Assembly: GCA_938083505.1 (NCBI GenBank)
Contig: CALKCF010000007.1
Coordinates: forward strand, 118,715-182,714
Length of the DNA: 64,000 nucleotides
Reading direction: 5' to 3'
DNA from: an uncultured archaeon
GTDB taxonomy: Archaea > Thermoproteota > Nitrososphaeria_A > Caldarchaeales > Wolframiiraptoraceae
A program made the position numbers and the translations under genes. The notes under the pieces are model-generated. The model had not been told where the DNA came from. It ran no database searches and saw nothing but the letters and a program-made list of their open reading frames with translations. Positions within the stretch are counted from its first letter, which is position 1; each line of letters begins with the position of its first letter. This document shows, piece by piece, positions 34,706-58,837 of the stretch.

Positions 34706-34707
34706 CC

Positions 34708-41503: not shown

Positions 41504-42235
41504 TTGTGTAAAGTTTGTATGATCTTCGTGGATAGTAAAGAGGCGTCGAAAAGCAAGAGTATCCTCGAAATGTTAACGAATGTGCTGGGCCAGCAGGTCG
41601 GTATAAAGAACTTAGAAGTTGGGGATTACCTCCTCGATGGTGCTGAGGGCATGGCCGTTATCGAAAGGAAAACGATAAACGACCTGCTGAACTCTCTGAA
41701 ACCTGATGAATCTGGTCGTGGGAGAATATGGTCCCAGTTAGATAGATTCTCAGAAATGGATTCCTTTGAGAAGATTCTGATAATCGAGGGATGGTTGGGT
41801 GCAATAAGGAGGATGACGGAATGGAATGAAGCCAGCGTCTACAGAGTAATAGAAAGTATTCAAAGGTACTACGAGGTCATCGTTGTTTATACGCCGGACT
41901 GGAAAGGTACTGGAGCTTACGTCATAGCAAAATACAAGAGTCTCTCGGAGAAACCGGAACCAAGGGACATAAGACTTCGGGTAAGCTCTGCTTCTATGAC
42001 GCCAGAAGAACAGGCACTCTATATTGTGGAAGGACTTCCGAGGGTTGGACCTAGTTTAGCAAAAGCTTTCCTCAAAACCTATGGTTCTGTGAGGAACGTG
42101 TTCAACGCATTAGCTTCGAAACCTATCGAACTCTTAAGGGATGAGGTAGCTAAGTTTTTAGGTAGAAAACCTCCAGAGGTTGTTATAAGGAACGCTAAGG
42201 ACATTATCGTAAGAGAGGTAAAATTAGAAGATTAA
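41504..42235 (+). CDS. xpf: ERCC4/XPF-type nuclease without helicase domain
   Basis: IERKTINDLLNSL nuclease motif and C-terminal HhH2 (VEGLPRVGPSLAKAFLKTYGSVRNVFNA). Confidence 0.92.
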   Translation: MCKVCMIFVDSKEASKSKSILEMLTNVLGQQVGIKNLEVGDYLLDGAEGMAVIERKTINDLLNSLKPDESGRGRIWSQLDRFSEMDSFEKILIIEGWLGAIRRMTEWNEASVYRVIESIQRYYEVIVVYTPDWKGTGAYVIAKYKSLSEKPEPRDIRLRVSSASMTPEEQALYIVEGLPRVGPSLAKAFLKTYGSVRNVFNALASKPIELLRDEVAKFLGRKPPEVVIRNAKDIIVREVKLED

Positions 42236-42251
42236 AGATGTTATATGCAAT

Positions 42252-43091
42252 TTAACCAAAACTGCCCAGTAGTAACGATGCAGCGGTGGCGACCATAATT
42301 ATAAGCAATGTTTCTAACGACATTTTCCTCCAACTTATCCGAGATTTCTTGGAACGGTATTTAATGAGATACGCGTTCATTGCACCTACAATCGCTAATG
42401 CCATTATGAGATTAGCCGGTTCTGGTAAAAACATGTATGCGACGACAGGAATACCTCCTGCTAGAAAAGTCGTTAAGCTACATATAAGTGCAGCGTACAA
42501 ATTAGACAGTCTTACCTCCTTATGAAGTAACATGAATAGCCTCTTAACTAGCATAAGGGATTTGTTGCGCTCATTTTTGTCGGGGATATCGCTCAAGCTG
42601 AACCTCATCAAAATTTGGATAGACCGCATATCTGCTAAATCCTCAGTTATTCCACCTAAAAGAAAACTGGAAAAGTTCGTTATGGCTACAGCCACCAACG
42701 TTAAAAGGACAGCAAATGTTACGACCTTAGTAAGTATGCCGGACAAGAAAACAGAAAGAACCACGACAAGTCCTGCTATTGAACCATCCACGAGGCCGGC
42801 TACAACTTCAAGTATGGGCTCTCTCTTCAGAAGAAGGTTTCTCCACTCTTTGCCCAACTTTATACCTTGAGGTGTCGGTCGGATGTAATCACCATCTTCA
42901 ATTATTAGTCCCTCAGAGACCATTTCTTTTAAGGACTTATCTAAGTCACTCACCTCAACGCAAACATCATCGGCACAAATTTCATCGATGCGCTTTTTGA
43001 GAATAGCCTTATGTATTGTAGTCCTTCTTTTCAAATTCAACAGAACAAACACTTTTATAACATCAGACAACTCTTGAACTTCAAATGACAC
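42252..43091 (-). CDS. VIT1/CCC1-family membrane protein with N-terminal wHTH-like region
   Basis: VAGLVDGSIAGLVVVLSVFLSG, SSFLLGGITEDLADM. Confidence 0.72.
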   Translation of the reverse strand: MSFEVQELSDVIKVFVLLNLKRRTTIHKAILKKRIDEICADDVCVEVSDLDKSLKEMVSEGLIIEDGDYIRPTPQGIKLGKEWRNLLLKREPILEVVAGLVDGSIAGLVVVLSVFLSGILTKVVTFAVLLTLVAVAITNFSSFLLGGITEDLADMRSIQILMRFSLSDIPDKNERNKSLMLVKRLFMLLHKEVRLSNLYAALICSLTTFLAGGIPVVAYMFLPEPANLIMALAIVGAMNAYLIKYRSKKSRISWRKMSLETLLIIMVATAASLLLGSFG

Positions 43092-43299
43092 TCAGTATTT
43101 CACCGTTCGCATTATTACTTAATATCTTATCAATTTAATAACCCTTCTGCACCTACGTATATAAATATGGCTACTGAAGGTTTGTTTTCAGCAAACCATC
43201 AAATTTTTGGGTTATAATTCATAAGTTAAGATAAAAATAGTTTTAAGCTCCCCTTACATTTTATGCTCTAAATATGTGTTACGGAAAGGCTGACGTGAG

Positions 43300-43920
43300 T
43301 TGAATAAATTACGCATGCCGAATAGGATCTCAGAACTCTTAAGCGTTCCATGGGTAAGGTCCTCCCTGATTTTAGGTGGAGTGCTTGTAGTTATAGGTGC
43401 GGCATTGATTTTGATCTTCAAATTTTTGAACATTGGGAATTCTCCACTTTTCATAGATGTAAAAACCCTCGTTATGAAGTACGGGCTCTTAGGCATATTT
43501 ATAGTCACAATATTGGCTGGTACCATTGTACCCGTTGGGAGTCCGGCGCTTGTCGTAATGGTATCATCTTTTGGTGTCCATCCCATACCCTTAACGGTTG
43601 TAGCCACGTTTGGCTTCACTGTGGGCATGGTAATAAACTACATGTTGGCTTACGGTTTTGGAAGACCATTCGTAGTGAAGAAGTTAGGGATGGAAAGGCT
43701 TGAAGAAATATCCGCGTTATGGAATCGATGGGGATGGTTCATATATGTGTTGTTTGGGATTGTGCCAGTGCTCCCGGTTGAGTTCCTGGCACTCTTCTGC
43801 GGGTTAATTAAAGTGCAATTCAGCCGCTTTCTTATCTTAAGCTTCATTCCACGCTTAGTGGTATTCGCTTTTCTATCTTACTTCGGAGTTCAACTTGGTT
43901 GGTGGCTTGAAATAATATAA
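43300..43920 (+). CDS. DedA/VTT-type (SNARE-associated) membrane protein
   Basis: YGLLGIFIVTILAGTIVPVGSPALVVMVSSFGV, 206 aa TM protein. Confidence 0.82.
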   Translation: MNKLRMPNRISELLSVPWVRSSLILGGVLVVIGAALILIFKFLNIGNSPLFIDVKTLVMKYGLLGIFIVTILAGTIVPVGSPALVVMVSSFGVHPIPLTVVATFGFTVGMVINYMLAYGFGRPFVVKKLGMERLEEISALWNRWGWFIYVLFGIVPVLPVEFLALFCGLIKVQFSRFLILSFIPRLVVFAFLSYFGVQLGWWLEII

Positions 43921-44222
43921 TAACGCGCACGCGCCCCAACATCTTCTGCACCTTACTGCTATTGTTATTTTCAAGGGACCGTTAGCTGGAGCTGATCTCA
44001 AGCATATAATAAACATACATAAATACTAAAATACTAAAAACTTAATGGTGAGACATGTCAAAAACAAAGGTGTTAAAGTTCCGTTAGAGAAAGGTGTTTA
44101 TGGGAGAGTTTGGTAGTATAGATTTATGTTGATAATGTAAACTTCACAGAGGAGTTGAAAGTAACCTTAAAATAACCTTAAAATATGAGAATTATAAATT
44201 ATATTATGAGAAGTGATGTTTA

Positions 44223-45458
44223 TTGGGTGGATTTTCTGAGGAGGACAGGAAGAAGTTTCTGAAAGAGGTTATTAGACAATTACACGCTGGCGTGCCTCTA
44301 CATGAGGTTAAAGAAAACTTTAAGCATGTGTTAGATGGAGTAAGCCCGCTTGAGATAGCCAAAATGGAACAGGAACTCATAAGTGAAGGTATATCAAGAG
44401 AAGAGATTCAAAGGTTATGCGACGTTCACTTAGCAATTTTCAAAGAACAGCTGGAAAAGCAGAAGATTGATGTACCCTCAACTACCCCCATTGGTATCCT
44501 AATGGAGGAGCACAACGTGCTCCAACGAATGGTCGAAAAACTTAGCATTTTAACTGAAAAATTACAGAAGGCAGAAAGTTTAGACGAGATTGTCAAAGAA
44601 TTTTCACAACTAAAGCATGTTGTAAAGGAGCTTTTAGATGCAGAAAAGCATTACTTAAGGGAAGAAAACGTCCTATTCCCAGTTTTGGAGAAGCATGGAA
44701 TAACTGAGCCGCCGGCAATAATGTGGATGGAGCATAACCAACTTAGGGAAAAAAAGAGGCAGCTTAAGGCCCTAATCGAGAACGTCACGAAAATTGGCTT
44801 TTTAGACTTTAAGAAGCAGCTTGGCGAACTGGCAAAAGCATTGAGCGAGATGCTCAACAGTCATATTTACAAGGAGAACAACATCCTATTCCCAATTGCT
44901 CAGCGCGTCGTCACGGAACAAGAATGGACTACTATAAGAGCTGATTTTGATGAAATTGGATATTGTTGCTTCATACCAGAACATTTGATAGCAAAACCGA
45001 CTAAAGGGTTTGAAAAATCAACATCCGAGGAGAAAGCCATGCTTGAAGATGCATTACAGTTTGAAACTGGAACGTTGACGAAAGAGGAAGTCGAGGCCAT
45101 TTTGAACACGTTACCCGTGGACATAACATTCGTGGATAAGGATGACGTTGTTAAATATTTTAATAAATCAGCTGAACGTATCTTTATAAGGACGAGGGCT
45201 GTTTTAGGCAGGAAGGTTCAGCTTTGTCATCCGCAAAAAAGTATCCACATAGTCAACAGAATCCTAGAAGCCTTCAAGAAAAGCGAAAAAGACGTGGCTG
45301 AATTTTGGATACAAAAAGGCGACCGCCTAATTCACATAAGATACTTCGCCGTAAGAGACAATGACGGCAAGTATTTGGGCACTATGGAAGTAACACAAGA
45401 CATAACAGACCTAAAGAAAATCGAAGGTGAGAAACACCTCCTAGACTGGGAAGACTAA
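44223..45458 (+). CDS. DUF438 - hemerythrin - PAS domain protein
   Basis: FLKEVIRQLHAGVPLHEVKENFKHVLDGVSPLEIAKMEQELI; HHE motifs; C-terminal PAS (LPVDITFVDKDDVVKYFNKSAERIF). Confidence 0.88.
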   Translation: MGGFSEEDRKKFLKEVIRQLHAGVPLHEVKENFKHVLDGVSPLEIAKMEQELISEGISREEIQRLCDVHLAIFKEQLEKQKIDVPSTTPIGILMEEHNVLQRMVEKLSILTEKLQKAESLDEIVKEFSQLKHVVKELLDAEKHYLREENVLFPVLEKHGITEPPAIMWMEHNQLREKKRQLKALIENVTKIGFLDFKKQLGELAKALSEMLNSHIYKENNILFPIAQRVVTEQEWTTIRADFDEIGYCCFIPEHLIAKPTKGFEKSTSEEKAMLEDALQFETGTLTKEEVEAILNTLPVDITFVDKDDVVKYFNKSAERIFIRTRAVLGRKVQLCHPQKSIHIVNRILEAFKKSEKDVAEFWIQKGDRLIHIRYFAVRDNDGKYLGTMEVTQDITDLKKIEGEKHLLDWED

Positions 45459-45686
45459 TCCCTAATCCTCTTCCTTATCTAACATAAAAAAATTTATTCG
45501 TAGCGTGTTAAGTAATTAGAAAAAATTAAGAGTAAATTCAGAGAAAGAAAAAATCTGAGTGAAATTTTTTAAGTCTGCTTTATATCATTATTGCTTATTT
45601 ATTGCTCAATTTTGCTTTGAAGCTCAGTTTTTCTTGGCGTTCCTTCTCTAACTCCTCTTTAGATGGTGCCTCAGGCTTTTTTGCCA

Positions 45687-45848
45687 TTAAGGATAAGACT
45701 TTTTTCGCCGCGCACTAGCATCTCGTAGGTTTCCCCTTACAAGTTTTCCAGCCTCAGTTTTCCCAGTTAAATAGAAGCGAATTGTCTGCTCACCCCTTCC
45801 AAGTTCTTCTGCTATCCGCGGAACGGTCATGTCGGCTTTCTTTCTCAT
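45687..45848 (-). CDS. Small HTH-like protein, possibly remnant
   Basis: 53 aa, MRKKADMTVPRIAEELGRGEQTIRFYLTGKTEAGKLVRGNLRDASARRKKSYP; absent from the supplied track. Confidence 0.4.
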   Translation of the reverse strand: MRKKADMTVPRIAEELGRGEQTIRFYLTGKTEAGKLVRGNLRDASARRKKSYP

Positions 45849-45899
45849 AAAGGCTCCTGGCTGTCACAGCCAAAGAGTTTATCCAAGTTATTCAGTCTT

Positions 45900-46284
45900 T
45901 AGGGTCTGCCGCTGCACATTTTCTCGATAACATCATATCTTGAAACAGTACCCAAAAGGAGAACTGCCTCAAGTCCTTCTATAAATTCCTCTATATGTAA
46001 CACTCAAACAAAGTTTTCTCTAGATAGACGACTATGTCTTTGCTTGATGCATCGCCGCTCAGGAGGATATGGCCATAGCGCCTCATCAGGCTCAGACACT
46101 CCCAAGGCATATTTGCGGCTATAGTTAGCCATGATCACCTCGGCTATCGAGGCCCAGTCGATGCCCGGAGCGTCAGAATATGATCCAACACCCCCGCCAT
46201 GAGCGTTTGAACATGCTCCAAAGCGGCCCATGATACTCGAATGCCCTGGAGAAGATGCTCCAGAAGCCTCTGCGGGGCTCGATT
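45900..46284 (-). pseudogene. Degenerate coding region left of the element boundary
   Basis: Protein-like segments in shifting frames with stops (RLLEHLLQGIRVSWAALEHVQTLMAGVLDHILTLRAS..., SWLTIAANMPWECLSLMRRYGHILLSGDASSKDIVVYLEKTLF, EEFIEGLEAVLLLGTVSRYDVIEKM). Confidence 0.4.
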
Positions 46285-46299
46285 TGGACCGGGCGGTAT
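46285..46299 (+). repeat. attL core direct repeat TGGACCGGGCGGTAT
   Basis: Identical to 58623-58637. Confidence 0.75.
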
Positions 46300-46311
46300 G
46301 CAATTAAATAA

Positions 46312-46325
46312 TTAAGCGAATCCTT
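46312..46325 (+). repeat. Left arm-type site TTAAGCGAATCCTT
   Basis: Perfect inverted partner of 58600-58613. Confidence 0.7.
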
Positions 46326-46561
46326 TTTAGAGTTTTCTTATTTTTCCTGTTTGTGGTTGGTATATTTGGCCTTGTTGTGTTAGGCGCCATATGGCTGTTT
46401 CAACAGCCGCCTTTTCCGGGCTCTCCTCTTCATAAGCCCGTTGGACAACTTCTTCTATTGTTATTGTTTTATTTTGGAGGTTTTCCATGAGCCATTTCAT
46501 GGCTTGGCTTTAAGCCTTTAGTCTGTATTGTTTGGGTTTCCAAAGCTCTTTTCTGGGCGGG

Positions 46562-46918
46562 CTAGCTACCTCTGCTTGAATCGTTTGGGCGCTTACTGTT
46601 GTAGCCTGCGTTGTTTGCGGCTAGTAGTCCATTAGGGTTATGGTTGGCACGGCTTTCTCTTTCAAGAGTTCTGGCAGCTTCCTGTTTAGGCTGGCTTATT
46701 ATTCGCTTCATTTTTCTTGCTCTTGAAATGCTTGACCAGTAGAAAGCCTCGTCAACCGTGTCTTCGGCTATTAGGATTGTTACTTTTCCTGCCACGCGTC
46801 TTCCTGTTATGCCCCTGCGTTGTATGTAGCGTATCTCGCTTGGAACAGGCTCATAAAAGACTACGTGGTCAACTTCAGGAATGTCTAAGCCTTCCCCGTC
46901 CCCCGTAGCATTTGCCAC
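46562..46918 (-). pseudogene. Fragment of a Hef/Mph1-type (ERCC4-associated) helicase C-terminal domain
   Basis: EGLDIPEVDHVVFYEPVPSEIRYIQRRGITGRRVAGKVTILIAEDTVDEAFYWSSISRARKMKRI; no helicase N-terminus upstream. Confidence 0.75.
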
Positions 46919-47042
46919 AGAGCAGTTGAAGATTCAACAAGTCATCCGCATACAAGTGGAGATTCTCGGTGGAACCACAATTTTGACATTTACCGCCTAA
47001 CTTTTCCATTAGAAGCTGACAGACTCGCCTACTCACACGCAT
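46875..47042 (-). CDS. Small zinc-finger / degenerate HNH-like ORF
   Basis: 55 aa MRVSRRVCQLLMEKLGGKCQNCGSTENLHLYADDLLNLQLLCGKCYGGRGRLRHS; two CxxC pairs; absent from the track. Confidence 0.4.
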   Translation of the reverse strand: MRVSRRVCQLLMEKLGGKCQNCGSTENLHLYADDLLNLQLLCGKCYGGRGRLRHS

Positions 47043-47437
47043 TAATGATCACTTCCTGTTAACGGTTTTTAACGGATAACGGGGGGAGGGGTACAGATGT
47101 AAAAATTTTCGATCTATTTAAAAGTATCCTTTAACATGCCAACATTGAAAAATCCGTACAATCCGTTACTTTTTTAAAAGAAGCCCAAAAAACTTCTTTC
47201 CTCACATTTCGCAACTCCGAATTTATCGAACTTTTTGTTTACACCGCAAATTCTACGAGAACATCGCAAGACTTAATAAACAAGGACAGACGAAAATCCG
47301 TTAACAACCGTAACATACGTAACACTAAGACTTAAGAAATAAGATTAAAAGGCATCGGCCATTCAATAACGCTCATTTAGCTTTCACGTATGTTAAATAT
47401 TTGTTCCGGTTTAAAACGTTATGCCGGCTGTTTCAAA

Positions 47438-48640
47438 CTATTGAATCACCTTTTTAATGACGTCAAACCGTTTAGGGTCTCCCTGTAGCACCCCAATCAT
47501 AATAACTAAAAAGTTCAAGAAGGTAGTTATCTTTGTTGCAATCGCCGCCAATAATCCGTGCTTCCACCCCATCACTTTCCCTATACTCCAAAACCTAAGC
47601 GCATACCATGAAGCCACAGATGCTAAACCAATAACGGATTGCTCCCAGGTGAGGTGTAAGAGTCCAACTAATGAAAGAAGAAGCCCCAATTGGGAAAAAG
47701 GATAGAAAACGAACGCGCAGAAGTGGACGAAAATAAACCTTAATGCATGGTTTAGAGGCAACATTCTTTTTATGTAAACGATGTTGAAGTTGCCCCATAT
47801 CCACCTTCTTCTCTGTTTCACCGCGTCTTTGAAGGAAAGAGGTGGAGTTATCAAGACAGGCTTATCCGAGTTATAAACCTTAAAGCCTGCAACCTCTGCC
47901 TTATGAAGCCAGTACATGTCCTCATTGCCCATTACAGGAACGTTCTCCAAAGTTTTGCCGTTGATGGGTTTAAATTCGTAGTCTAAGGCTTGCTCCACAT
48001 ACTTGTAATATATTTGAGATTCGCCGTGTCCATACAAAACCCGTCCAACATTAGTGAAGAAGTTGCAAGTGTGCATGCAAGTGTAGGGTCGTTCATAGTC
48101 AAGCAGCAGCCCAAACTTTGAAGTTGTCCTAGGCTTAATTGTCCCGACAACAACGTCTGCATCTACGCTTAAAGCGTCAAGTATTAATTCTCGGCTAACC
48201 ACTGAGTCGTCGTCGCTTTGTATCACCATGTACTTGGATGGAAGCAAACCTTTTTCAGCCAGTTGCAGCCTATACCGACGCGCATACTCTAAAGCTCTAG
48301 CTTTCACGTGGGCGAAACATTTGAAAGCTTTCGGGACAACGACTACGCGGTCAGCGTTGTATCTTGTCGGGTTGTCTCCTTCTTCAATCACTACCCAACA
48401 CTGCAACGGCAGAGGCAAATCATATTTGCGAACCGTGTCAAAAATTTTGTTAACACATTCAGCGTTACCAACCGTTGGAATTTGGAGGATTATTAGGTCT
48501 GCTTTGTCGTTATGGGGGTTAAAACGCTTAAACTTCTTTGCGCTAACAGCTCCAATAACTGCTTCCGCCAGAAAGAATAATGGAGCAAACCATGAAGCAA
48601 GAATTAACCATTTAACTATTTCAAAAATGATGCTTAACAT
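47438..48640 (-). CDS. Family 2-like membrane glycosyltransferase
   Basis: VIQSDDDSVVSRELILDAL (DxD), KQRRRWIWGN (Q/RxxRW), C-terminal TM helices. Confidence 0.88.
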   Translation of the reverse strand: MLSIIFEIVKWLILASWFAPLFFLAEAVIGAVSAKKFKRFNPHNDKADLIILQIPTVGNAECVNKIFDTVRKYDLPLPLQCWVVIEEGDNPTRYNADRVVVVPKAFKCFAHVKARALEYARRYRLQLAEKGLLPSKYMVIQSDDDSVVSRELILDALSVDADVVVGTIKPRTTSKFGLLLDYERPYTCMHTCNFFTNVGRVLYGHGESQIYYKYVEQALDYEFKPINGKTLENVPVMGNEDMYWLHKAEVAGFKVYNSDKPVLITPPLSFKDAVKQRRRWIWGNFNIVYIKRMLPLNHALRFIFVHFCAFVFYPFSQLGLLLSLVGLLHLTWEQSVIGLASVASWYALRFWSIGKVMGWKHGLLAAIATKITTFLNFLVIMIGVLQGDPKRFDVIKKVIQ

Positions 48641-49370
48641 TTTCGTTAACCATCTCCGCCGCTTCTAGAATTTTAGGGTTCAAACCGTTTCGCCGAAAAT
48701 CATTAATCAAATGTTTAACGTCTTTCGGTAGGCATCTGCCTCCGTAAGGTTTTCCAAAGAATTTTGTTCCCCATTTGCCGCCTTCCCATTCACCTAAAAC
48801 CTTCGCTGGGTCACATGCCTGTGCAACAGTTTTAATGTCGGCTCCTATCTTTTTGCAAAGTAGGTAAAGCTCGTTCCAGAAGCTTATGCTCACAGCCCTA
48901 AGCGAGTTGGTTGAAAGTTTTATCAGCTCGCTTGTCGTCGGATCTGTGCGGTAAACTGTTGTGGTTAAAGGGGCGTAGAGCCTTTCAAGCTGTTCTCCGT
49001 GCTTATGGCAGCATTCACCTATAACAATTCTTGAAGGGTTCACCACATCCTTCAAGGTGTGTTTTTCTCTGAGGAACTCCGGGTTGTGGCAGATGTGGCG
49101 CTTATATTTCTCCATTAAAGTTTTAGTTGTCCCCACTGGAACTGTGCTTTTAATAACGTAAAGTCCTTGAACTTCAATTTCAATTAACGTTTGCAAAGCT
49201 TTCTCCACCTCATGTTCAGGAGTGCAGATGAAGGTTGCGTCCACCTCTTTTTCGATTTTGTTTTTACCTTTGAACGGGTCATAGATGAACGTTTGGTGTC
49301 CCAGCTTCCGCATTAGGTACGCTTGTGCGGAGCCAACTACGCCGTAGCCGACAATTTGAATTTTCATCAC
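48621..49370 (-). CDS. UDP-glucose/GDP-mannose dehydrogenase family protein (short form)
   Basis: KIQIVGYGVVGSAQAYLMRKLGH; STVPVGTTKTL; GTKFFGKPYGGRCLPKDVKHLI catalytic Cys motif. Confidence 0.9.
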   Translation of the reverse strand: MMKIQIVGYGVVGSAQAYLMRKLGHQTFIYDPFKGKNKIEKEVDATFICTPEHEVEKALQTLIEIEVQGLYVIKSTVPVGTTKTLMEKYKRHICHNPEFLREKHTLKDVVNPSRIVIGECCHKHGEQLERLYAPLTTTVYRTDPTTSELIKLSTNSLRAVSISFWNELYLLCKKIGADIKTVAQACDPAKVLGEWEGGKWGTKFFGKPYGGRCLPKDVKHLINDFRRNGLNPKILEAAEMVNENVKHHF

Positions 49371-49463
49371 ACTTCACTGACATATATTGTATGCGAAAAG
49401 TTTTAATAGGCTTTTCGCTGTGGCAAAACTCCCCGCTACGCCCCTCAAACAAAAAGAGGAAGA

Positions 49464-49712
49464 TTATAGGCGTAGGCATTTAGGGTTAGTTCTAATGGCT
49501 CGCCAAAAGGCTGGGCTTTTAGAAGCCATGTTAATGTCCCTTAACTGTTCATGGGTAATCCTTAGAATAACCCAATTGCAAAAGTAGAAGTCTTCACTAT
49601 CGTAGGTTTCATGGCTCTCGCTGTCATGCCATTTCATTAGCATATTAAGTAAAGCCCTTGTGTAAGCCCATAGGATATAACCACAATTTCGACATTTAAC
49701 CACAAAAGGCAT
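49464..49712 (-). CDS. Hypothetical protein with CxxC motif
   Basis: MPFVVKCRNCGYILWAYTRALLNMLMKWHDSES... Confidence 0.4.
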   Translation of the reverse strand: MPFVVKCRNCGYILWAYTRALLNMLMKWHDSESHETYDSEDFYFCNWVILRITHEQLRDINMASKSPAFWRAIRTNPKCLRL

Positions 49713-49952
49713 GGCTAACCAACCCCTTTTAATGTTTGGGTGTAGTGGTTTAGAGTGCCACTCGATAAGCCCTTATTCCTGTGCACACAGCTTGAATTGC
49801 ATATACTCCTTCCACATTTCATAAACGTAGCCTTCCTTGAATGTTAGGAGGTAGCCCCTAACCCATTCGCCCTTCGAAGAGGCTGCAAATTTGCCTCCTT
49901 TGCTGAACCTCTCCAAAAATTTCAACCTCGAATGGGTAGGGAGCCCTCTCCA

Positions 49953-50796
49953 CTAACCTACACCCTTAAAGATTTCTACAGCTTTTGGAATTGAAACCTT
50001 CTCTTCCTCTGTTATTCCGCGGTAGAACTGGACTGTTGTGTCAAAACCTCGAGTGCCTAGCCACATACTTGCTTACAAGGTCTAAGGGGACCCCTCTGTT
50101 TCTCAGGCTTGTAATTCGCGAATGCCTCAAGATATGGGGCCTTAAATCTCTGCCCCGGAATTCTATCCCGGCCCTCTTGCAGTCCATCTTAAAAGCCATT
50201 TCAACAGCTCTCGCAGTTATCTCGAAAAGCTTCTGTTTCCCGAGAATATTGTCGTATTTTAGCAGCATTTCCTTGATCCATGGCTCAAGCTTGTATGTAG
50301 CCTTCTCCTCCCTTTTCTTCTTCAAAATATTGAAAGTGATTGTGCCTTTTTCGAGGTCCAAATCTTTCCTTGTTAGGGCTAATACTTCGCCTAGACGGCG
50401 GGCGTAAGCGTAGCATAAAGCGTAGATAATCCTGCGGATCGGCGAAGGCGTGTTGGTGATAAGCCTCGCAGCTTCATCATCCGTTAAGAAGTCAACCTCT
50501 CCAACATTGCGGGGCGGAATCCTCTTCTTCAAAAGTTTAAGCTTCTTCTCATCCACGTCTAGCATCATGATTTCAAAGTAGCTGAGAACATCATAGGTGT
50601 AGACGCCCAATGTGCTGCTGCTTAAACCACGCTTCAGCAGCTCGTCAATCCAGAGGTTAAGCGACTCAAGGCCTGGCTGCAAACCATTCTTCTCGAGGAA
50701 ACTGTCGTATTGTTTTAGGACTACTTCTTTCCGCTGTAAACATGATTTGGGATAGAGATCCTTAGCTCTAAACTTGAAGGTTTTAATGTCAAGCAC
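49953..50796 (-). CDS. int: Archaeal tyrosine recombinase/integrase, +1 frame-disrupted before the catalytic Tyr
   Basis: 0-frame ORF 50041..50796 has the R..HxxR core (YARRLGEVLAL, RPHILRHSRITSL) and ends VARHSRF-UGA; the +1 frame continues DTTVQFYRGITEEEKVSIPKAVEIFKGVG* (50042-49953). Confidence 0.88.
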
Positions 50797-50831
50797 AATT
50801 ATTAAAATTTAATAAAGGGAATATAAAAATT

Positions 50832-51041
50832 TCAGCCCATGAGTTTCGCCAATTCTTCCTTCAGAAGCTTTCGCTCTTCTTCTGTGAAGACCTTTCTGAT
50901 TTCCTCTCGGACCTCATCCTTAACCGAGTCGCCTTGAACCAGAATCTTTGTTAGAAGCTCTATGCATATGGTTTTCTTGCTGTCCTCTTTTATGACGGCG
51001 CATACTCTGCGGGCTGTTTCGCGGGCCATCAATTCAATCAC
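50832..51041 (-). CDS. Small hypothetical element protein (family A, copy 2)
   Basis: 69 aa, GTG start overlapping the upstream stop; resembles 51038..51247. Confidence 0.6.
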   Translation of the reverse strand: MIELMARETARRVCAVIKEDSKKTICIELLTKILVQGDSVKDEVREEIRKVFTEEERKLLKEELAKLMG

Positions 51042-51247
51042 TCAACACCCAGCTCCCTCAACCTCTCCTTAACGGTTTTCCTGCAGTCTTCCGGAAGCTC
51101 GGCTAAGGCTTCAAAGCCTTTGCCTTCCACGAGGATTTTGTGGAGAACCGCTCTGCACTTAGCCTTGTTCGCTTCTCCAACGGCTTCACAGACGTCCTCA
51201 ACAATTTCCTTAGACATCAGAACCTTGATCCCCTCCTCGTCGTTCAC
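51038..51247 (-). CDS. Small hypothetical element protein (family A, copy 1)
   Basis: 69 aa, GTG start overlapping the upstream stop. Confidence 0.6.
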   Translation of the reverse strand: MNDEEGIKVLMSKEIVEDVCEAVGEANKAKCRAVLHKILVEGKGFEALAELPEDCRKTVKERLRELGVE

Positions 51248-51390
51248 TCCAACACCTCCTTTAATATTTTTAATGCTTTACGCTTAAAAGCTTCCGGCGG
51301 AGTCAAATACTCCTCAAGCCTATCCATCTTCAACTTTTCAGCCCTAAGCAATGTTTCGCCTAGGACTGTTGCCTCGCTTCCACGCTTCAT
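51244..51390 (-). CDS. Small hypothetical element protein
   Basis: 48 aa MKRGSEATVLGETLLRAEKLKMDRLEEYLTPPEAFKRKALKILKEVLE; overlaps neighbours by 4 nt; absent from the track. Confidence 0.55.
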   Translation of the reverse strand: MKRGSEATVLGETLLRAEKLKMDRLEEYLTPPEAFKRKALKILKEVLE

Positions 51391-51641
51391 CCTTCTAGGA
51401 CTGTGTTCAGGGATTCAGCAAAGCGGGTGCAGAAAGCCTCAGGCTTCTTTTCAGCCTCCCTTATAACCCTGTCAAAGAGTTTAAGGTAAACGTCATCCAT
51501 GTTTTTTATGCTGGCATAATACATCAAGTCCGTAAGCCACCTGATGGCTTCGCTTGCACGATCCTTGGATAAGGCCTCGAGGATTTTTGCTGTGGCCTCT
51601 AACAAGACCTGCTTAGGCTCAGCTTCCAATACGTTCACCAA
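51387..51641 (-). CDS. Hypothetical helical element protein
   Basis: 84 aa; first gene of the overlapping series. Confidence 0.6.
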   Translation of the reverse strand: MVNVLEAEPKQVLLEATAKILEALSKDRASEAIRWLTDLMYYASIKNMDDVYLKLFDRVIREAEKKPEAFCTRFAESLNTVLEG

Positions 51642-51686
51642 ACAAGAATGGTGGAAACAAAAATAAAAATGCGTCGAATATGGCTG

Positions 51687-52214
51687 TTAGGCGTTCTCTG
51701 CTCCGATAATGATTATGTCGAAACTGAAGCTTGTGATGCCGCCTATGTTTGAAGCAACTGAAAGTGTTAAATCTGCTGATACGCTATCTCCAGGATCTGA
51801 AACTTGGTCTTGGCGGTTCTAACTTAAAGTCAGATAGTTTGAAGCTGACGATGGATTCCAGTTGTCGACTTCCATGCTCAGCCTAATTGGAACATTGCCT
51901 TCATTCTTCACGTAGACCGTGAACTGTTTACTTGAGCCTGGCTCCAGAAAGCCCCAATCGATATACGATACTGGAATGGTGCAACCGCTGTCGGAGTAGA
52001 CGCCTACACCAACAGCCTTTATATTCCCAACGCTGGAAATTATCCGCTTGGCAACAAGGGCTCCCAACACTGTTGCAACTATACATACAAGGGCGATTGC
52101 CAAAACCGTTGCCAAAGCGATTCTATGCATCGCCATGTTCTTCACCAGCAAGAGCTTAGCAGAAAAAGAGGGGGAATGCACCAGGCGCCAGGCAAGTTGT
52201 CTACATGGCTTCAA
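51687..52214 (-). pseudogene. Membrane-anchored pilin/flagellin-like beta-domain protein with in-frame amber codon
   Basis: ORF 51819..52214 ends ...NYLTLS-TAG; same frame continues NRQDQVSDPGDSVSADLTLSVASNIGGITSFSFDIIIIGAENA* to 51687. Confidence 0.7.
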
Positions 52215-52409
52215 AGGCTGCCTTCATGTTCGAGAAAAGCTTCTCAAACACGAGCTGGTAGACTACCTGATAACATCCAGGATAATTAAGCCTCTCGTCA
52301 ACCTCCTCAACATTTTAATAAAAGCCAGAGAAGCCGAAATCTACAAAGAAAAAGAGAAACTCGTAGAAATCTTCTCAAAAATCATTTAATCACTCTGACA
52401 AATCGTCCT

Positions 52410-52940
52410 TCATTTTAATTCTTGCTCAATAAGGTGCCAAGCGTCAAGAAACTCGGTGTAGTTTGTTAGTTCATTATCAATGCTAGCTGTTACTCTTTCA
52501 TCCCAAACGTTTGAACCTCCAAAATGGAAGCAGAAGGAGTATACTCCTCTCTTTCCTGGGTCTTTAACCGTCATTCTCTTCTCGAGTTCAGCGCTTGGAA
52601 CAATGAGGAATTTGTTTTCGAAACGACTTATCCTGTGTTCTCCAACAAGCGGCAGGTAGGTGATGAAGACATAAAAATCAACTTTGCCTCTGTTTTTAAG
52701 GAATTTTGCCCTCTTGATTTGATGCCAACTGTGTCCCACATGCCCGCTTTTCCATCTGCGACCAATGTAATAACGTGACTCTTTAACCTGGATTCCCACG
52801 TGCTTATCACCTTTAACAACCAGCAAATCTAAGCCAACATCACGCACAGGAAAATACACCTCACACTTCAGCCTTTTCATGATTTCCTCTGCAACTATGC
52901 ATTCACCAGGCTCTAAAGACCAAACGTTTCTAACAGGCAC
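52410..52940 (-). CDS. PD-(D/E)xK-type nuclease-like protein
   Basis: FPVRDVGLDLLVVKGDKHVGIQVKESRYY resembles the restriction-endonuclease-like active-site layout. Confidence 0.5.
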   Translation of the reverse strand: MPVRNVWSLEPGECIVAEEIMKRLKCEVYFPVRDVGLDLLVVKGDKHVGIQVKESRYYIGRRWKSGHVGHSWHQIKRAKFLKNRGKVDFYVFITYLPLVGEHRISRFENKFLIVPSAELEKRMTVKDPGKRGVYSFCFHFGGSNVWDERVTASIDNELTNYTEFLDAWHLIEQELK

Positions 52941-53176
52941 TTACACCACAAAAAACAAAGTGTTAAAGCATTATAAATAAATTCTATCGATACTTTCGGT
53001 TAGACGTTACTAACAGAACACATAGAAAAGCAAGCAATTTAAACATAAAATCGCAAAGCAAGCATGTTTTAGGCTTAGAATAGATGCTATGGGAAACGAT
53101 AGAAACCCTTCACAATTTTTATCCAATATTAATTTAATAAGGCAACATAAGGAGTATTGGAACCGTGCATAAACCT

Positions 53177-53899
53177 TCATGGTCGATACTTAGCTAACCA
53201 TGGGATAAGTTCCGCGAGTGTTTTTATGCGATTTCCGGTGAAATCAGGATATCTGTCTTCTCTGTCTATGAGCAGCGCCTCCATTCCAGTGTTAATGGCT
53301 CCTTCGTAATCATCTTTTGGATCATCCCCTACATAGATGCAGCTTCCGGTTTTAATGCCCATTAAAGAAGCTGCATGTTCGAAGATTCTGCGGTCTGGCT
53401 TCTTTATTCCGAACTCTACAGAAGTAACTATAACTTCAAACGAGTTGTTAAGGCCTGCTTTGGCTAAATTCTGGTAGACTAGGCTCGGATAATGGGTGTT
53501 GCTTATCAGTCCCAGCCTATGACTTTTCGAAAGCTGTTTAATAACTCTTGTGCTTTCATCAAAAGGCTTGACACCTCGATTCCATTCCCATAAAAATGTC
53601 TCCGCCAGCAGCTTTACAAAGCTAGAAGTAGGAGGTTTAGACGGGAAATTTTCCCTCAAGAAATTTTTGACAAAATCGAAAAAATGAAACTCTACGCAAT
53701 CAACATAGGATTCCGCCTCCATCCGACTTAAGCAGTCTTCCCAACTCCGCTTGAAAACCTCAAGTTCAACTTCATAACCGTATTTTTTGAGGAGTCGCCA
53801 GGTCCGTTTACCCCCATCCACAAATAGGGATTCAGGGACACTTAGCAATGTTCCAAATAAATCAAAGATGAGCACTTTTTTCATGTTCTCCACTTCCAT
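53177..53899 (-). CDS. HAD-superfamily hydrolase
   Basis: LIFDLFGTLLSVPESLF, LGLISNTHYPSL, KKPDRRIFEHA, YVGDDPKDDYEGA. Confidence 0.93.
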   Translation of the reverse strand: MEVENMKKVLIFDLFGTLLSVPESLFVDGGKRTWRLLKKYGYEVELEVFKRSWEDCLSRMEAESYVDCVEFHFFDFVKNFLRENFPSKPPTSSFVKLLAETFLWEWNRGVKPFDESTRVIKQLSKSHRLGLISNTHYPSLVYQNLAKAGLNNSFEVIVTSVEFGIKKPDRRIFEHAASLMGIKTGSCIYVGDDPKDDYEGAINTGMEALLIDREDRYPDFTGNRIKTLAELIPWLAKYRP

Positions 53900-54025
53900 A
53901 TATTATTGTTAGGAAACTTACACTAGGAAAATAAACTTAACGAATAACAGCAGCCTCGATTTATAGACTTTCTATGAGGATTTTGTAGTTGTTAAAGGAA
54001 GGAAACTAAATATGAGTGAAAGTCA

Positions 54026-54541
54026 TCATGGGTTTAGGTGTTGAGTTTGCGAGAGTTTTGGCAAGGGGATGGCTGGAACTGAAAGGATCTCCCCCTTAGC
54101 CATTATGTATTCGAACCCTCCCCCCACCTCCTCAACCCAAAAGCCGAGGGCTACTGCCGGCTTAAGCTTCTTCGCCTCCCTCATGCTTTTCCATACTGTA
54201 ATTGAAGTGTCAAACTCGATTTTGCCAGCCCTGTTAGGCAGCTGTGGAAGGTGTTCCGCCAACTTTCTAGCTAGCTCATTAACGCTTTCGGCTGTAAGTC
54301 CAACGGTTGCTAGAGGCGCAACCCTCTCAATTATCCGCCTAATCACAACTTCTGGTATTCTAAACTCCCTGACAAGCTCCCCAATTCTTTCGGGCGGGAC
54401 GGCTGGCGCGGCTGGAGCGCCAATCCTCTCGGATATTGCCTGCAAAAGCTTTAACTGCTGCTCCTCAACCCTAAGAAGCAAAACGATTAGCTCGTCCACC
54501 CTTGTGAGAACGTCTAAAAGCCTTTGAATGGGGATCTCCAT
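54026..54541 (-). CDS. Hypothetical element protein with N-terminal coiled-coil-like region
   Basis: 171 aa; part of the co-oriented module. Confidence 0.55.
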   Translation of the reverse strand: MEIPIQRLLDVLTRVDELIVLLLRVEEQQLKLLQAISERIGAPAAPAVPPERIGELVREFRIPEVVIRRIIERVAPLATVGLTAESVNELARKLAEHLPQLPNRAGKIEFDTSITVWKSMREAKKLKPAVALGFWVEEVGGGFEYIMAKGEILSVPAIPLPKLSQTQHLNP

Positions 54542-54567
54542 TGCAACCTTTCCGCTAGTTCAAGTTT

Positions 54568-54906
54568 TTACAGGTTGTAGGCTTGCAGCATAACTGAAAT
54601 AGTGTTTGCGCTGGCTACTGCCTTGATGTTTTGGCCAGGATTCATGGTGAAAAGGGGCGAATCCACAGACCTGTAAACGTCTAAAGTGGCATAGGCGTCT
54701 AAAGTTATGGGTGGAAGTGTCCTCTCAACCGTTGCTTCCCGTTCAATTGTAAGCGTCAGCGTGTTTGCAGTCGCCGCGTTGTTATGTATCAGCATACCAT
54801 AGACTTTTCGTGCAAACTTGTTAGGCGGAACCGTATTGTTTGTCAATGGAACCTTGCTTGTTCCGACTTCCGCTTCCATTTCGAAAGTGTCTTCGGGCTT
54901 GGCCAA
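54568..54906 (-). CDS. Hypothetical beta-rich protein, candidate virion/surface component
   Basis: 112 aa; Thr/Asn/Val-rich alternating pattern (ATANTLTLTIEREATVERTLPPITLDAYATLDVY). Confidence 0.55.
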   Translation of the reverse strand: MAKPEDTFEMEAEVGTSKVPLTNNTVPPNKFARKVYGMLIHNNAATANTLTLTIEREATVERTLPPITLDAYATLDVYRSVDSPLFTMNPGQNIKAVASANTISVMLQAYNL

Positions 54907-54908
54907 AC

Positions 54909-55628
54909 CTAGCTTCCTCCTGCTAAAACTCTCTCTATTGTGGCTTTGTCAACCTCTGTTGGGGGAGCCCATTCCTCTGGCACTGTCCACGTGAAGTGTC
55001 TGAGTCCTCCAACGGTTAGGAACCTGCATGGTGGCTTCTGCCTCAGCATTCCCTCGATCACGTTTCTGTTTGTTATTTGTATGGTGTCGTAGCCTGCTCC
55101 AAGAATGCGCATGCTTGGCCTTATGGGTCTTCCAGAGTCGTTCTTAAGCCCAATTTCTATGCTTAGCTTATGGTATAGAACGCATTCAGTAGCCACTGTG
55201 GGATTGTCATAGGGGCTCAGCCATCCCGGAATGTAATCGCGTTTGTCTCCAACTTTTGGAGGCTCAACCTTGTAGCCCCAGCCTGTCTGTGGCGTGCCCG
55301 CTGGAATACTCCTGTAAAGCCATATCTCGCTTGGTCTAATGCCAAATGCGAAATGCAGTATCCTGAAGGGCCTCTCCTCCCACACGGCCAGTATGTCAGG
55401 CTCCTCTCCCAGGGCTGTTTCTCCCATGATTTTGAAGTCAACTGTTTCTCCCTCGGGAATTTCCGGAAGCTCGCCGTCATAGGTTCTGTGAAGGGGATAT
55501 CTTCGCATGACACGGAAAAAGTAGAGGGCGAATACAGGCTCTTTAGCCACAGCCTTTGGAAGAATAATAGCCAAGTTCATGTTCTCGTCAAAGATAGACT
55601 CAACTATAGGCTTATTCAACTCAACCAT
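54909..55628 (-). CDS. Hypothetical protein, candidate structural component
   Basis: 239 aa, no recognised family; 3 nt from the next gene. Confidence 0.55.
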   Translation of the reverse strand: MVELNKPIVESIFDENMNLAIILPKAVAKEPVFALYFFRVMRRYPLHRTYDGELPEIPEGETVDFKIMGETALGEEPDILAVWEERPFRILHFAFGIRPSEIWLYRSIPAGTPQTGWGYKVEPPKVGDKRDYIPGWLSPYDNPTVATECVLYHKLSIEIGLKNDSGRPIRPSMRILGAGYDTIQITNRNVIEGMLRQKPPCRFLTVGGLRHFTWTVPEEWAPPTEVDKATIERVLAGGS

Positions 55629-55697
55629 ACAGTTTTTAACCTCCGTTCAGAAAAACTTCGGGAGTTCATTGTTTTGTTCAGCTCCCTGCAAGGGAAA

Positions 55698-55871
55698 CTA
55701 GCCCTTCTCAGAAGTGGTGGTCACGGTCACTGTTACTGGCGCGAAATCGTAGGCGGCTGTATCGGCTTCTCCGGCTGTAACTCCCCCATGCGTATGCGAT
55801 GGCAGGTCAACAGTAACCGTTACTGAATGTTTATGTTGCCTGTGCCCTGCAAGGTATCCGGGTTTTGGCAT
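55698..55871 (-). CDS. Small His-rich beta hypothetical protein
   Basis: 57 aa MPKPGYLAGHRQHKHSVTVTVDLPSHTHGGVTAGEADTAAYDFAPVTVTVTTTSEKG; absent from the track. Confidence 0.5.
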   Translation of the reverse strand: MPKPGYLAGHRQHKHSVTVTVDLPSHTHGGVTAGEADTAAYDFAPVTVTVTTTSEKG

Positions 55872-55883
55872 TTATTCAGCCTC

Positions 55884-56582
55884 CTATGCGCCTGGTCTGG
55901 CTAGTGCTGGCACATCTTTGCCGTAGCCTATCCATACGCCAACCGGAAACGCGTAGGTTGTAACAGTAGCGCCTGCGGTTTTCGACTCAACCTTTCCATC
56001 AATGTCTAACGTTGCATCGGCGATAACTGGGTGTGGAAACTCGAAAACCTGCATATCCGTAGCCTTCATGATAAGGGTGGCTTCAATGGGGTACTGTGGA
56101 ACTCCATCCACATCCACAACTTGAACAGCCGTCAAGGGAGCTGTGGGGCTAAGCTCTATTATGTCCGTGATGATGAAGATCTGCTTTGCCGGAATCGTTA
56201 GTTTGCCGGCTGTTGGGGGAATAATGTTGAAGGTTCCAACGTATTTCCCAGCGGCAAGCGTTATATCCCTTTCATACGTGAAGTTTTCGCCTATGTGTTC
56301 TGGTCGGAGCTGCATCAAAACAATGTCGTCGCTCTTAGCATATTGAAGCGGCATAATGTTACGCTTCTCCTTCTCCTTAAACTCGGCTAAGACCTGGCAG
56401 ACAAGCTCAAGGTTCCTCGTCAAACCCGGAACCTCAAAAGTTCTCTCCGAAATATTCAACGTCCTAATCTTCGCCAACTCATGCTTCACAATGTCGTATT
56501 CCGTCCCAAAAGGCTCAACCTTGCGGCTGAGAACAGACTTGGCATCTATCTCGAGCAACCTCTTTAACTCTTCAATTTCCAT
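55884..56582 (-). CDS. Hypothetical beta-rich protein, candidate major structural component
   Basis: 232 aa; helical N-terminus then a long beta-rich region (AAGKYVGTFNIIPPTAGKLTIPAKQIFIITDIIELSP...). Confidence 0.55.
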   Translation of the reverse strand: MEIEELKRLLEIDAKSVLSRKVEPFGTEYDIVKHELAKIRTLNISERTFEVPGLTRNLELVCQVLAEFKEKEKRNIMPLQYAKSDDIVLMQLRPEHIGENFTYERDITLAAGKYVGTFNIIPPTAGKLTIPAKQIFIITDIIELSPTAPLTAVQVVDVDGVPQYPIEATLIMKATDMQVFEFPHPVIADATLDIDGKVESKTAGATVTTYAFPVGVWIGYGKDVPALARPGA

Positions 56583-56654
56583 ACAACCAACTCCATTTAA
56601 CAGCTGGAAAAGAATATTAAAATGATGGTATCAGTAAGTATTGGTTAGACTAAA

Positions 56655-56816
56655 ATGGCTGAGGAGCTGGTTTTCACGGCTCAGGTTCAAAAGATCTACA
56701 GAATAGCCATACCGAGAACAATTTATAAGGCGTTGGATATTAAGCCCGGAGACTATGTTGAGGTTAGAGTAAAGAAGGTCAGCATCAAGCCTAAGGGATA
56801 CCCGCTAACTCGCTGA
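56655..56816 (+). CDS. AbrB/SpoVT-like small DNA-binding protein
   Basis: 53 aa MAEELVFTAQVQKIYRIAIPRTIYKALDIKPGDYVEVRVKKVSIKPKGYPLTR; absent from the track. Confidence 0.7.
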   Translation: MAEELVFTAQVQKIYRIAIPRTIYKALDIKPGDYVEVRVKKVSIKPKGYPLTR

Positions 56817-56839
56817 AACTTAAATTTCTAGCTTTGACA

Positions 56840-57172
56840 TCAGCGGCTCATTACGTAGCCTGTCTTCGGCTTCTCCTTTTCAGCCCCTGAAAGCTGATAC
56901 TCGGCTTTTCTCTCTACGCTGGGCAGGATATCCTCCAGCTTAGGGAGGGTTGGGAGTTTACCGAGAACCTCAGGCAGCTTAGGCGCCCTTGGAACAACAG
57001 CCTCAGGAGCCTTTCCAGCCTCTAAGGAAGTTTGAAGTTTCAAGAGGGTTGACTGCGGACCTGGAGGCAGCTCCACCTTCAAGGCTTCTTTAACCAAGCT
57101 TTCAAACTGGCTTTCAGGCGCTGCCAAAAGCTGCGTGAAGGATGATATTTTGGGAAGCTCCTGCGGAGGCAT
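56840..57172 (-). CDS. Pro/Leu-rich hypothetical element protein
   Basis: 110 aa with repeated LPxL segments. Confidence 0.5.
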   Translation of the reverse strand: MPPQELPKISSFTQLLAAPESQFESLVKEALKVELPPGPQSTLLKLQTSLEAGKAPEAVVPRAPKLPEVLGKLPTLPKLEDILPSVERKAEYQLSGAEKEKPKTGYVMSR

Positions 57173-57424
57173 CTACTTCTTCACTGCCTTTGTAGGCACG
57201 TCGAGGGCTTGGGCTATACCCTCGCCTATGTTTTCAATGGCAGTTCCAATACTCTTTGCAATGCTGTCAGCCACCCTGTGGGGACCAGCAGAGCCCAACG
57301 GCCCCTTATCTATAGCTGAAGACACAGATTCGGACAGCTCCTTTGGAACACGTACTAGGCTGTCTAAAACGTCGTCCGCAACCCTATGTGGAGGCTTAGC
57401 CGTTAAATCGGGGAGTTCGGGCAT
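57173..57424 (-). CDS. Hypothetical element protein with PHRVAD internal repeat
   Basis: 83 aa; PPHRVADDVLDSLVRV and GPHRVADSIAKSIGTA. Confidence 0.5.
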   Translation of the reverse strand: MPELPDLTAKPPHRVADDVLDSLVRVPKELSESVSSAIDKGPLGSAGPHRVADSIAKSIGTAIENIGEGIAQALDVPTKAVKK

Positions 57425-57436
57425 TCAACCACCAAA

Positions 57437-57772
57437 TCAATAATAAACGTTCATATTTTTAATTTTTTCTATTCCGTAAAAACCTTTAATGCAGCTAAAA
57501 ACTGAGGGCAGCCACTTATTCTCCTTAACGAAGCGCTCGTACTCTTCAGGCTTCATCAAACGCTTAAGCTCGGCGTAAGCCATATCCGACGCCACGTCGC
57601 CGGCGAATGGTATGACGTCTGCGAGGTCGTCCATCAAAGCGTAGCGGAGAACCTCCCTCTGCCTATCATCAAGCTTTGGCATGGGTTTCGGAGGAAAATC
57701 TGGGAGCTCAACGCTTGGGAGCTCAACCTCTAAAAGCGGAATTTTAAACTTTTCCAAAATTTTTATGGGCAT
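57437..57772 (-). CDS. Hypothetical element protein
   Basis: 111 aa; Pro-rich N-terminus and ADVIPFAGDVASDMAYAELKRLMKPEEYERFVKENKWLPS. Confidence 0.55.
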   Translation of the reverse strand: MPIKILEKFKIPLLEVELPSVELPDFPPKPMPKLDDRQREVLRYALMDDLADVIPFAGDVASDMAYAELKRLMKPEEYERFVKENKWLPSVFSCIKGFYGIEKIKNMNVYY

Positions 57773-57785
57773 ACTGCAAGCCTAC

Positions 57786-58475
57786 TTATTGAAGCTTAGA
57801 CCACGTTAAAAGCCCGTAGCCTTTATCGGCAGATTTCTCTCCGAAGCGAGCCATCCTAGCCTTAACATCTTCAATATTGCTGAGTATGCCCCTGTCTATG
57901 GCTAAAGCCGCAAGCCCTGAGCAATGGGGTGTAGCCATCGACGTGCCAATCATCAAGTCGAAGCCGTCTGGAACCAAGTCGTAGAAGGCGTCGTACCATA
58001 GGCTCACCGCAGCTACGATTTGGCTTTCTCTGTCTCCGCCTATGCCGGCTACATCTGGCTTCAAGAAGTTTCCCCCGTATTTTTGGTAGTCCCTGTCATA
58101 GGCGTCCTTGTTATCCCTGTACCATCTTGCTTGCGGCCCACGCGATGAATAGCTTGACGTTTCCATTGTCTTCCAGTCTACGGCAGCCACACATAAAACG
58201 TATGGGCTGGCTCCCGGGCTGTTTATGCTCCATTCCTCGCCGTCGTTTCCAGCCGCGACTATGAAGTTTGTGCCATACTGCCTGTAAAGCTTCTCAGCCA
58301 AAACACATTCGGGATCCTCTTCAACGCTTCCCTCCAATGGACCGCCGAGACTCATGTTCACAACCTTACAGCCTTTCACTGCGCACATCTCCATAGCCTT
58401 CATGATCTGGAAGCTTGAGCATGGACCAAATGCGGTGAACACTTTAACATGGTAGCTGGATGGAGCCAAAGCCAC
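57786..58475 (-). CDS. Subtilisin-like serine protease (S8), atypical or truncated N-terminus
   Basis: CKVVNMSLGGP, NFIVAAGNDGEEWSINSPGASPYVLCVAAVDW, catalytic Ser GTSMATPHCSGLAA; the frame is open upstream to about 58637. Confidence 0.9.
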   Translation of the reverse strand: MALAPSSYHVKVFTAFGPCSSFQIMKAMEMCAVKGCKVVNMSLGGPLEGSVEEDPECVLAEKLYRQYGTNFIVAAGNDGEEWSINSPGASPYVLCVAAVDWKTMETSSYSSRGPQARWYRDNKDAYDRDYQKYGGNFLKPDVAGIGGDRESQIVAAVSLWYDAFYDLVPDGFDLMIGTSMATPHCSGLAALAIDRGILSNIEDVKARMARFGEKSADKGYGLLTWSKLQ

Positions 58476-58599
58476 GGGAATGAAGGTTCCATACCGTGAG
58501 AGGCATGGTTGACCGAAGGCGCATGAATGGGCCCAGCTATTATGAACTATGAAACCGCTGGCCGAATAGTTGCCATATGTTGTATCCGCTAAATCGTAG

Positions 58600-58613
58600 A
58601 AGGATTCGCTTAA
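58600..58613 (-). repeat. Right arm-type site AAGGATTCGCTTAA
   Basis: Reverse complement of 46312-46325. Confidence 0.7.
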
Positions 58614-58622
58614 AAAATTAAG

Positions 58623-58637
58623 TGGACCGGGCGGTAT
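58623..58637 (+). repeat. attR core direct repeat TGGACCGGGCGGTAT
   Basis: Identical to 46285-46299. Confidence 0.75.
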
Positions 58638-58837
58638 CTACACTTAATTGGGTGCGAGTCCACATTGTACGGAGTAATTTGAAAGGATTCAGGGAATGCG
58701 GTCGAAAAAGCGAGGGTCTAGGCTTCTCCATATAGCTGAAGGAAGCAAATGAAAAGACTGCTCGAGGTGCTGACGAAAATTTTTATCATCCACCGAATGC
58801 CATCATCGGTGAAGCGTTAGGGAGGGAATAAGGGGAG

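Follow-up and report, generated by a model that had tools for sequence, protein, structure and literature searches.

The 64,000-nucleotide stretch of contig CALKCF010000007.1 analysed here (the window; part of contig C7 of genome G000, an uncultured Wolframiiraptoraceae archaeon) carries at 46,285-58,637 an integrated element that represents the decayed deletion derivative of a tRNA-Ala element, probably lies in an array at tRNA-Ala(CGC), and borders an inversion of 34 kb of chromosome, probably through att sites. The initial annotation had described an integrated element bounded by att cores and symmetrical inverted arms, and this description stands, since a relative from another genome, G061, has the same ends. 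The 15-mer TGGACCGGGCGGTAT is present at both ends in identical orientation, the 14-bp sequence TTAAGCGAATCCTT forms an inverted pair, and the midpoint of the arms in the joined attP is no more than 1 bp from the core dyad ACCG-GG-CGGT. An exact 15-mer direct repeat is by itself unremarkable for 64 kb and lies within chance (3 were observed, against a mean of 2.7 in first-order Markov shuffles); its combination with inverted arms was found in 0/30 shuffles. No further copy of TGGACCGGGCGGTAT occurs in the 1.154-Mb genome beyond the two ends. The 14-mer does have one extra copy, the one-letter variant TTAAGYGAATCCTT at 11946-11959, yet this copy lies directly 3' of tRNA-Ala(TGC), i.e., it is an att footprint and not the dispersed repeat of which the initial annotation had warned. 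An additional match to TTAAGYGAATCCTT, with one mismatch, is located on contig C3 of the same genome. A general terminator or promoter motif was ruled out for the 14-mer, as the genome total is 3 and every copy lies at an att site or a tRNA-Ala end.

The relative, reached via one element protein (97% identity), resides on contig JAGTQI010000001.1 (C4) of Bathyarchaeota archaeon DGJ8_bin_44_34 (G061). This contig carries copies of the left end (11540-11578) and the right end (67498-67535) of an element of ~56 kb, and its right end is joined to tRNA-Ala(GGC) (67520-67595). Around the cores of this element, attL consists of the tRNA 3' end followed by CTTAATTTTTTAAGCGAATCC, and attR of GGACTCACTTAATTATTTAATTGCAT, ACCGCCCGGTCCA and chromosome; the window ends match these sequences nearly letter for letter. 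Because the relative has both ends together with tRNA-Ala(GGC), the window repeats are genuine att ends whose native target is the tRNA-Ala 3' end. In the core ATACCGCCCGGTCCA, the stretch CCGCCCGGTCCA coincides with the 3' terminus of both G000 tRNA-Ala(CGC) and G061 tRNA-Ala(GGC). One end restores the tRNA gene in the G061 relative but not at the window copy, as would be explained by a position of the latter within an array. ARAGORN and Rfam detected no tRNA at the element edges. A hidden intron-bearing tRNA at an edge was rejected as well: neither program sees one, and tRNA-Ala TGC, CGC and the intron-bearing GGC are all intact elsewhere.

Four segments of the window (49407-51694, 52153-52256, 54079-56599 and 56840-58607) are collinear with the ~56-kb element at 92-97% DNA identity, whereas the left ~600 bp match a smaller element on contig C32 of G061, in which the open reading frame (ORF) of a 661-amino-acid (aa) Hef-like helicase is whole. 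With a left end resembling that of C32 and a remainder resembling C4, the window element is a mosaic remnant. Its S8 (subtilisin-like) protease corresponds to a G061 protein of 870 aa with a whole intein (Intein_splicing and LAGLIDADG matches), and homology between the two ends inside the last residues of the intein, where the right arm begins. Thus, the segment running from the protease to the right end, which in G061 contains the integrase, has been lost. The window element is, as judged by sequence comparison, a decayed deletion derivative of the ~56-kb element; the intact element envisaged initially does not agree with a right end that cuts an intein which is whole in the relative. The 56-kb element encodes ParB, RadA, an archaeo-eukaryotic primase and a HerA-like ATPase (HAS-barrel), along with uncharacterised proteins that form a conserved cluster. 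In this cluster, the arrangement of the genes for the 232-, 239- and 112-aa proteins is retained by G061 and by two other Bathyarchaeota contigs. No virion hallmarks were recognised and there were no convincing PHROG/Pfam matches; AlphaFold modelled the 232- and 239-aa proteins poorly (mean pLDDT 49.5 and 32.2, respectively), Foldseek returned nothing at E<=0.001, and IMG/VR and phage collections yielded no relative. The aRF1 of G061, encoded on the contig shared with the element, is 45-52% identical to aRF1 of G000 and its whole order; that the element DNA is nonetheless 94-97% identical points to recent transfer between distant archaeal lineages.

A mobile-element subtilisin-like protease at L076:6145-8757 is interrupted close to its catalytic His by an intein that contains a LAGLIDADG domain. 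The G061:C32 element (~6 kb; L105, G061:C32:36000-48000, 1091-7270) is a second element of that genome, located at tRNA-Ile(GAT), and carries a frameshifted integrase of the family discussed below, a DNA methylase, a probable restriction gene and, at its distal end, the 661-aa Hef-like helicase, so that it looks like a small defence-type island. A helicase 82% identical to the latter is found in congener G004 (L111, G004:C8:33000-40371, 4605-6527), shortly downstream of the ABC-permease/tRNA site that corresponds to the integration locus of G000, beside TnpB-like and HEPN-like genes.

In G061, an intact 435-aa tyrosine recombinase starts ~60 nt from the tRNA, directly inside the right arm. An intact 443-aa homologue (int443, 60% identity) is placed in the same way on contig C1 of G000, directly downstream of tRNA-Ala(CGC) and with an arm at +21, and a broken homologue adjoins tRNA-Ile(GAT) on G061:C32. 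The 435- and 443-aa proteins both contain RPQSL, RPYVLRAY and EARYST, i.e., the residues of the pNOB8-type catalytic definition R..YxxR..Y (PMC8371274). Position and sequence indicate that this 435/443-aa family, which in relatives adjoins the tRNA end, is the cognate one, and no integrase of this type is present between the window repeats. A PDB search yielded no useful integrase relative. On contig C1, a broken second copy of the C-terminus of the cognate integrase lies 2.7 kb past int443 (L072, 10735-11007), which suggests more decayed array members downstream of tRNA-Ala(CGC).

The integrase family was detected in 52 of 401 sampled Thermoproteota genomes (about an eighth), and in 19 of the fetched loci a tRNA (Ala, Val, Lys, Arg, Ser, Gly, Glu or Ile) could be identified directly before the integrase gene. 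In most loci, a T-arm-like motif stands at a fixed place past the tRNA (for example, GGGTTCAAGTCC, GGGTTCGGAACC, GGTTCAAAACC and GGGTTCGAGTCC), and the window arm AAGCGAATCC is a degenerate member of it. The match to GGTTCRANNCC ending at +21 averages 5.95/9 at integrase loci and 2.54/9 at 59 control tRNAs, with a peak solely at +21. For 13 divergent loci the mean is 7.0/9, with 11 of them ending in CC at +20/+21 (Mann-Whitney p ~5e-8 against controls, phylogenetic relatedness uncorrected). The distance from the arm to the T-arm of the tRNA itself is 32 bp, near three helical turns, and the integrase may bind both. A tentative proposal, on which we would not insist, is that the family uses att sites built from T-arm copies, with GGTTCRANNCC being read in the tRNA and again one 32-bp period further on; since the T-arm is near-identical in all tRNAs, a single lineage could then switch among Ala, Val, Ile, Lys, Arg, Gly and Ser tRNAs via the short core alone, and convergent tRNA pairs would become sites of inversion.

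Such an inversion is apparent from comparison with congener G003, in which the order is znu-type ABC genes, tRNA-Ala(CGC), window 14098-43091, tRNA-Ala(TGC) and window 11720-405 reversed. In the window, the same 34 kb sits after tRNA-Ala(TGC), and arm sequence occurs at both breakpoints. A single inversion between convergent tRNA-Ala 3' ends explains the window order and requires tRNA-Ala(CGC) to lie beyond the end of C7. The sequence TTTTTTAAGTGAATCCTT that follows the window tRNA-Ala(TGC) is identical over 18 nt to the arm at L119, an integrase locus with 94% identity; the G003 tRNA-Ala(TGC) is without an arm footprint. In both G002 and G005, tRNA-Ala(CGC) is on the same side and tRNA-Ala(GGC) at the far side, and this difference in the far-side gene indicates that tRNA-Ala ends are repeated breakpoints within the genus. 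The inversion itself is visible in the gene order, whereas its catalyst is something we infer.

At the right core, TAT is followed by CTACACTTAATTGGGTGCGAGTCC and not by chromosomal or tRNA sequence. Within this flank, GCGAGTCC keeps the spacing from the core that is seen for GCGAATCC in the window left arm and for GTGAGTCC in the G061 left arm. Left-arm sequence beyond the right core is read most simply as an element-element junction, and the right core is most likely such a junction within an array. The simple chromosomal attB of the initial annotation is difficult to reconcile with an outer flank that bears the left arm of another element. On contig C1, 6.8 kb separate tRNA-Ala(CGC) and int443 from the contig end; C7 stops where the window does, 5.4 kb to the right of the element. 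Most likely, the window element forms the outer unit of a tandem array at tRNA-Ala(CGC); the join between C7 and C1 is one that we infer and that is not sequenced.

The surroundings of the presumed junction include several other genes. The place expected for the neighbouring element (element B) holds a gene for a secreted-looking protein of 1077 aa (58838-62071) with almost no relatives in the order and with parts resembling a WD40-like propeller, an Ig-like domain and a probable metalloprotease. Near the contig end lies a transposase-like ORF (62941-63624), which is a possible cause of the assembly break, although the genome has just one copy of it. The start of C1 (11-106) and the end of C3 (221444-221539) have the same tRNA and the same flank, and these two contigs probably overlap and join.

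Several observations weigh against this interpretation. There is no overlap between the contig ends of C1 and C7, so that the array join is unseen; the left arm of element B is degenerate and its gene content undefined. Relatives offer no exact empty site for the hemerythrin-like gene and the 0.8 kb adjoining the left core, and a search for an empty site using the gene at 44223-45458 showed that relatives have that gene in other contexts. In the wider family, the arm is unrecognisable or the geometry differs in 3 of 30 fetched loci, and several close integrase loci (G061, L119-L121 and L124) are not independent. It might be argued that the same integrase family hit a secondary, non-tRNA site resembling the core and that there is no array: neither end has a tRNA, and the contig stops 5.4 kb rightward, leaving a second element unproven. 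We regard this as rather unlikely, as the outer right flank has GCGAGTCC at the exact left-arm distance and synteny places tRNA-Ala(CGC) past the contig end.

A further possibility, and a very improbable one, is that of the initial annotation, in which an intact element entered an ordinary attB by means of the tyrosine integrase encoded within it. A tyrosine recombinase ORF is indeed present between the repeats, together with att cores and arms; this part of the claim is correct, but the ORF is frameshifted and falls outside the family found at these att sites. Relative to a 280-aa G061 copy (97% identity), the 251-aa window recombinase has a 1-nt insertion at ~50043, and its C-terminus, including the catalytic Tyr, is lost as a result. 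Host ORFs of the window are full length in 30 of 32 cases relative to G005, over 27 kb, which makes a habitual sequencing error an unlikely cause of the frame break. Moreover, the 280-aa homologue belongs to the interior of the 56-kb relative (27.4-28.2 kb), which has a different integrase at its tRNA end. A plasmid search with the 251-aa protein gave generic matches only. Another tyrosine recombinase, with a frame of 403 aa and 25% identity to the 251-aa protein, lies at G000:C3:218140-218788, ~190 bp from tRNA-Arg(TCT), and this locus is possibly another integration site.

An assembly chimera at one or both ends has very little probability. The window derives from a metagenome-assembled genome, the cut in the S8 intein falls exactly on the right arm, and contig ends are near; however, the host ORFs are full length as described, and the ends recreate a structure independently present in another genome. 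Casposons produce 14-15 bp duplications at tRNA 3' ends, and the end geometry taken alone would fit a transposon or casposon with the arms as terminal inverted repeats and the 15-mer as a target-site duplication, but this is the least credible explanation, given that the scanned ORFs included no recognisable Cas1, polymerase or transposase, that hybrid ends of attL/attR type occur together with a tyrosine integrase in the relative at tRNA-Ala, that the 15-nt identity includes the element-specific ATA beyond the target sequence, and that no relatives were seen at unrelated targets with unrelated 15-bp duplications.

Under the preferred reading, a decayed tRNA-Ala element in an array, a 435/443-aa pNOB8-type integrase would have mediated site-specific integration at a tRNA-Ala 3' end, its gene normally lying just inside the tRNA-side end. 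The attP would consist of a core, the tRNA 3' end, between two inverted T-arm-like arms, with the tRNA-side arm ending 21 nt past the tRNA. The array would run tRNA, int443, element B, core, window element, core and chromosome; the window element would be non-autonomous, having lost its own integrase by deletion next to the right arm, and any mobility would depend on int443 supplied in trans. Afterwards, recombination between the att sites of two convergent tRNA-Ala genes would have flipped the intervening 34 kb. Coordinates are collected in Table 1.

Table 1. Features of the window and of the element at its right side
Feature	Position	Strand	Remarks
tRNA-Ala(TGC)	11868-11941	+	Followed by TTTTTTAAGTGAATCCTT (11942-11959), att right-arm footprint at the other inversion breakpoint
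Inverted chromosomal segment, 34 kb	11942..46284	.	Relative to congener G003, in which it is located between convergent tRNA-Ala(CGC) and tRNA-Ala(TGC)
Left att core (attR type)	46285..46299	-	Minus-strand sequence ATACCGCCCGGTCCA
Left-end module	46299..46895	-	C-terminal remnant of Hef-like helicase with frame breaks; 85% DNA identity to G061:C32 left end
Left arm TTAAGCGAATCCTT	46312..46325	+	TTAAGTGAGTCC at equal distance in the G061 element
Glycosyltransferase family 2-like protein, 400 aa	47438..48640	-	Cargo; not common to G061
UDP-glucose/GDP-mannose dehydrogenase-like protein, 249 aa	48621..49370	-	Cargo; looks shortened; not common to G061
Tyrosine recombinase, 251 aa	50041..50796	-	Second recombinase, apparently not the cognate integrase
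Conserved cluster of uncharacterised proteins	54026..57772	-	232, 239 and 112 aa; no virion hallmark recognised
S8 (subtilisin-like) protease	57786..58622	-	5'-truncated; starts within the last residues of the intein
Right arm TTAAGCGAATCCTT	58600..58613	-	Identical to the right arm adjoining G061 tRNA-Ala(GGC)
Right core	58623..58637	-	Element-type ending ATA instead of tRNA T-arm; most likely element-element junction
Outer right flank	58638..58661	+	Putative degenerate left arm of neighbouring element; GCGAGTCC at 58654-58661
Predicted circular junction			AAGGATTCGCTTAAAAAATTAAGTGGACCGGGCGGTATGCAATTAAATAATTAAGCGAATCCTT

In several respects, this system resembles known archaeal elements. As in pNOB8-type integrases and elements (PMC8371274), the 435/443-aa enzyme has R..YxxR..Y, insertion is at tRNA 3' ends and the integrase lies beside the tRNA end. 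However, the att identity of pNOB8 types in Sulfolobales is 40-50 bp according to that paper, whereas it is just 12-15 nt here, and the inverted T-arm-like arms at fixed spacing go unmentioned in its att section. Integrated elements of Thaumarchaeota (PMC6563490), including cryptic ones, likewise have short att sites (mostly 8-26 bp), tRNA 3' targets, tandem or nested integrations and decayed copies, but the window element lies in a different class, derives by deletion from a 56-kb element shared across classes and has no cognate integrase. In Thermococcales, chromosome inversions at integrase-target tRNAs are driven by a pTN3-type integrase (PMC5495485), and there, too, the endpoints are oppositely oriented tRNA genes that serve as integrase targets. 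Nonetheless, the pTN3 integrase is of a suicidal R..K..R..Y type, whereas the window inversion involves two tRNA-Ala 3' ends, att arm footprints and, presumably, a pNOB8-type integrase.

The findings provide a complete attL/attR/attP reading for this integrase family, with a concrete and testable rule for the position of the arm, and document near-identical element DNA in two archaeal classes. They also connect the family with a chromosome inversion that runs from site to site at tRNA-Ala genes. A more general lesson is that an integrase located between two repeats need not be the enzyme that placed those repeats.

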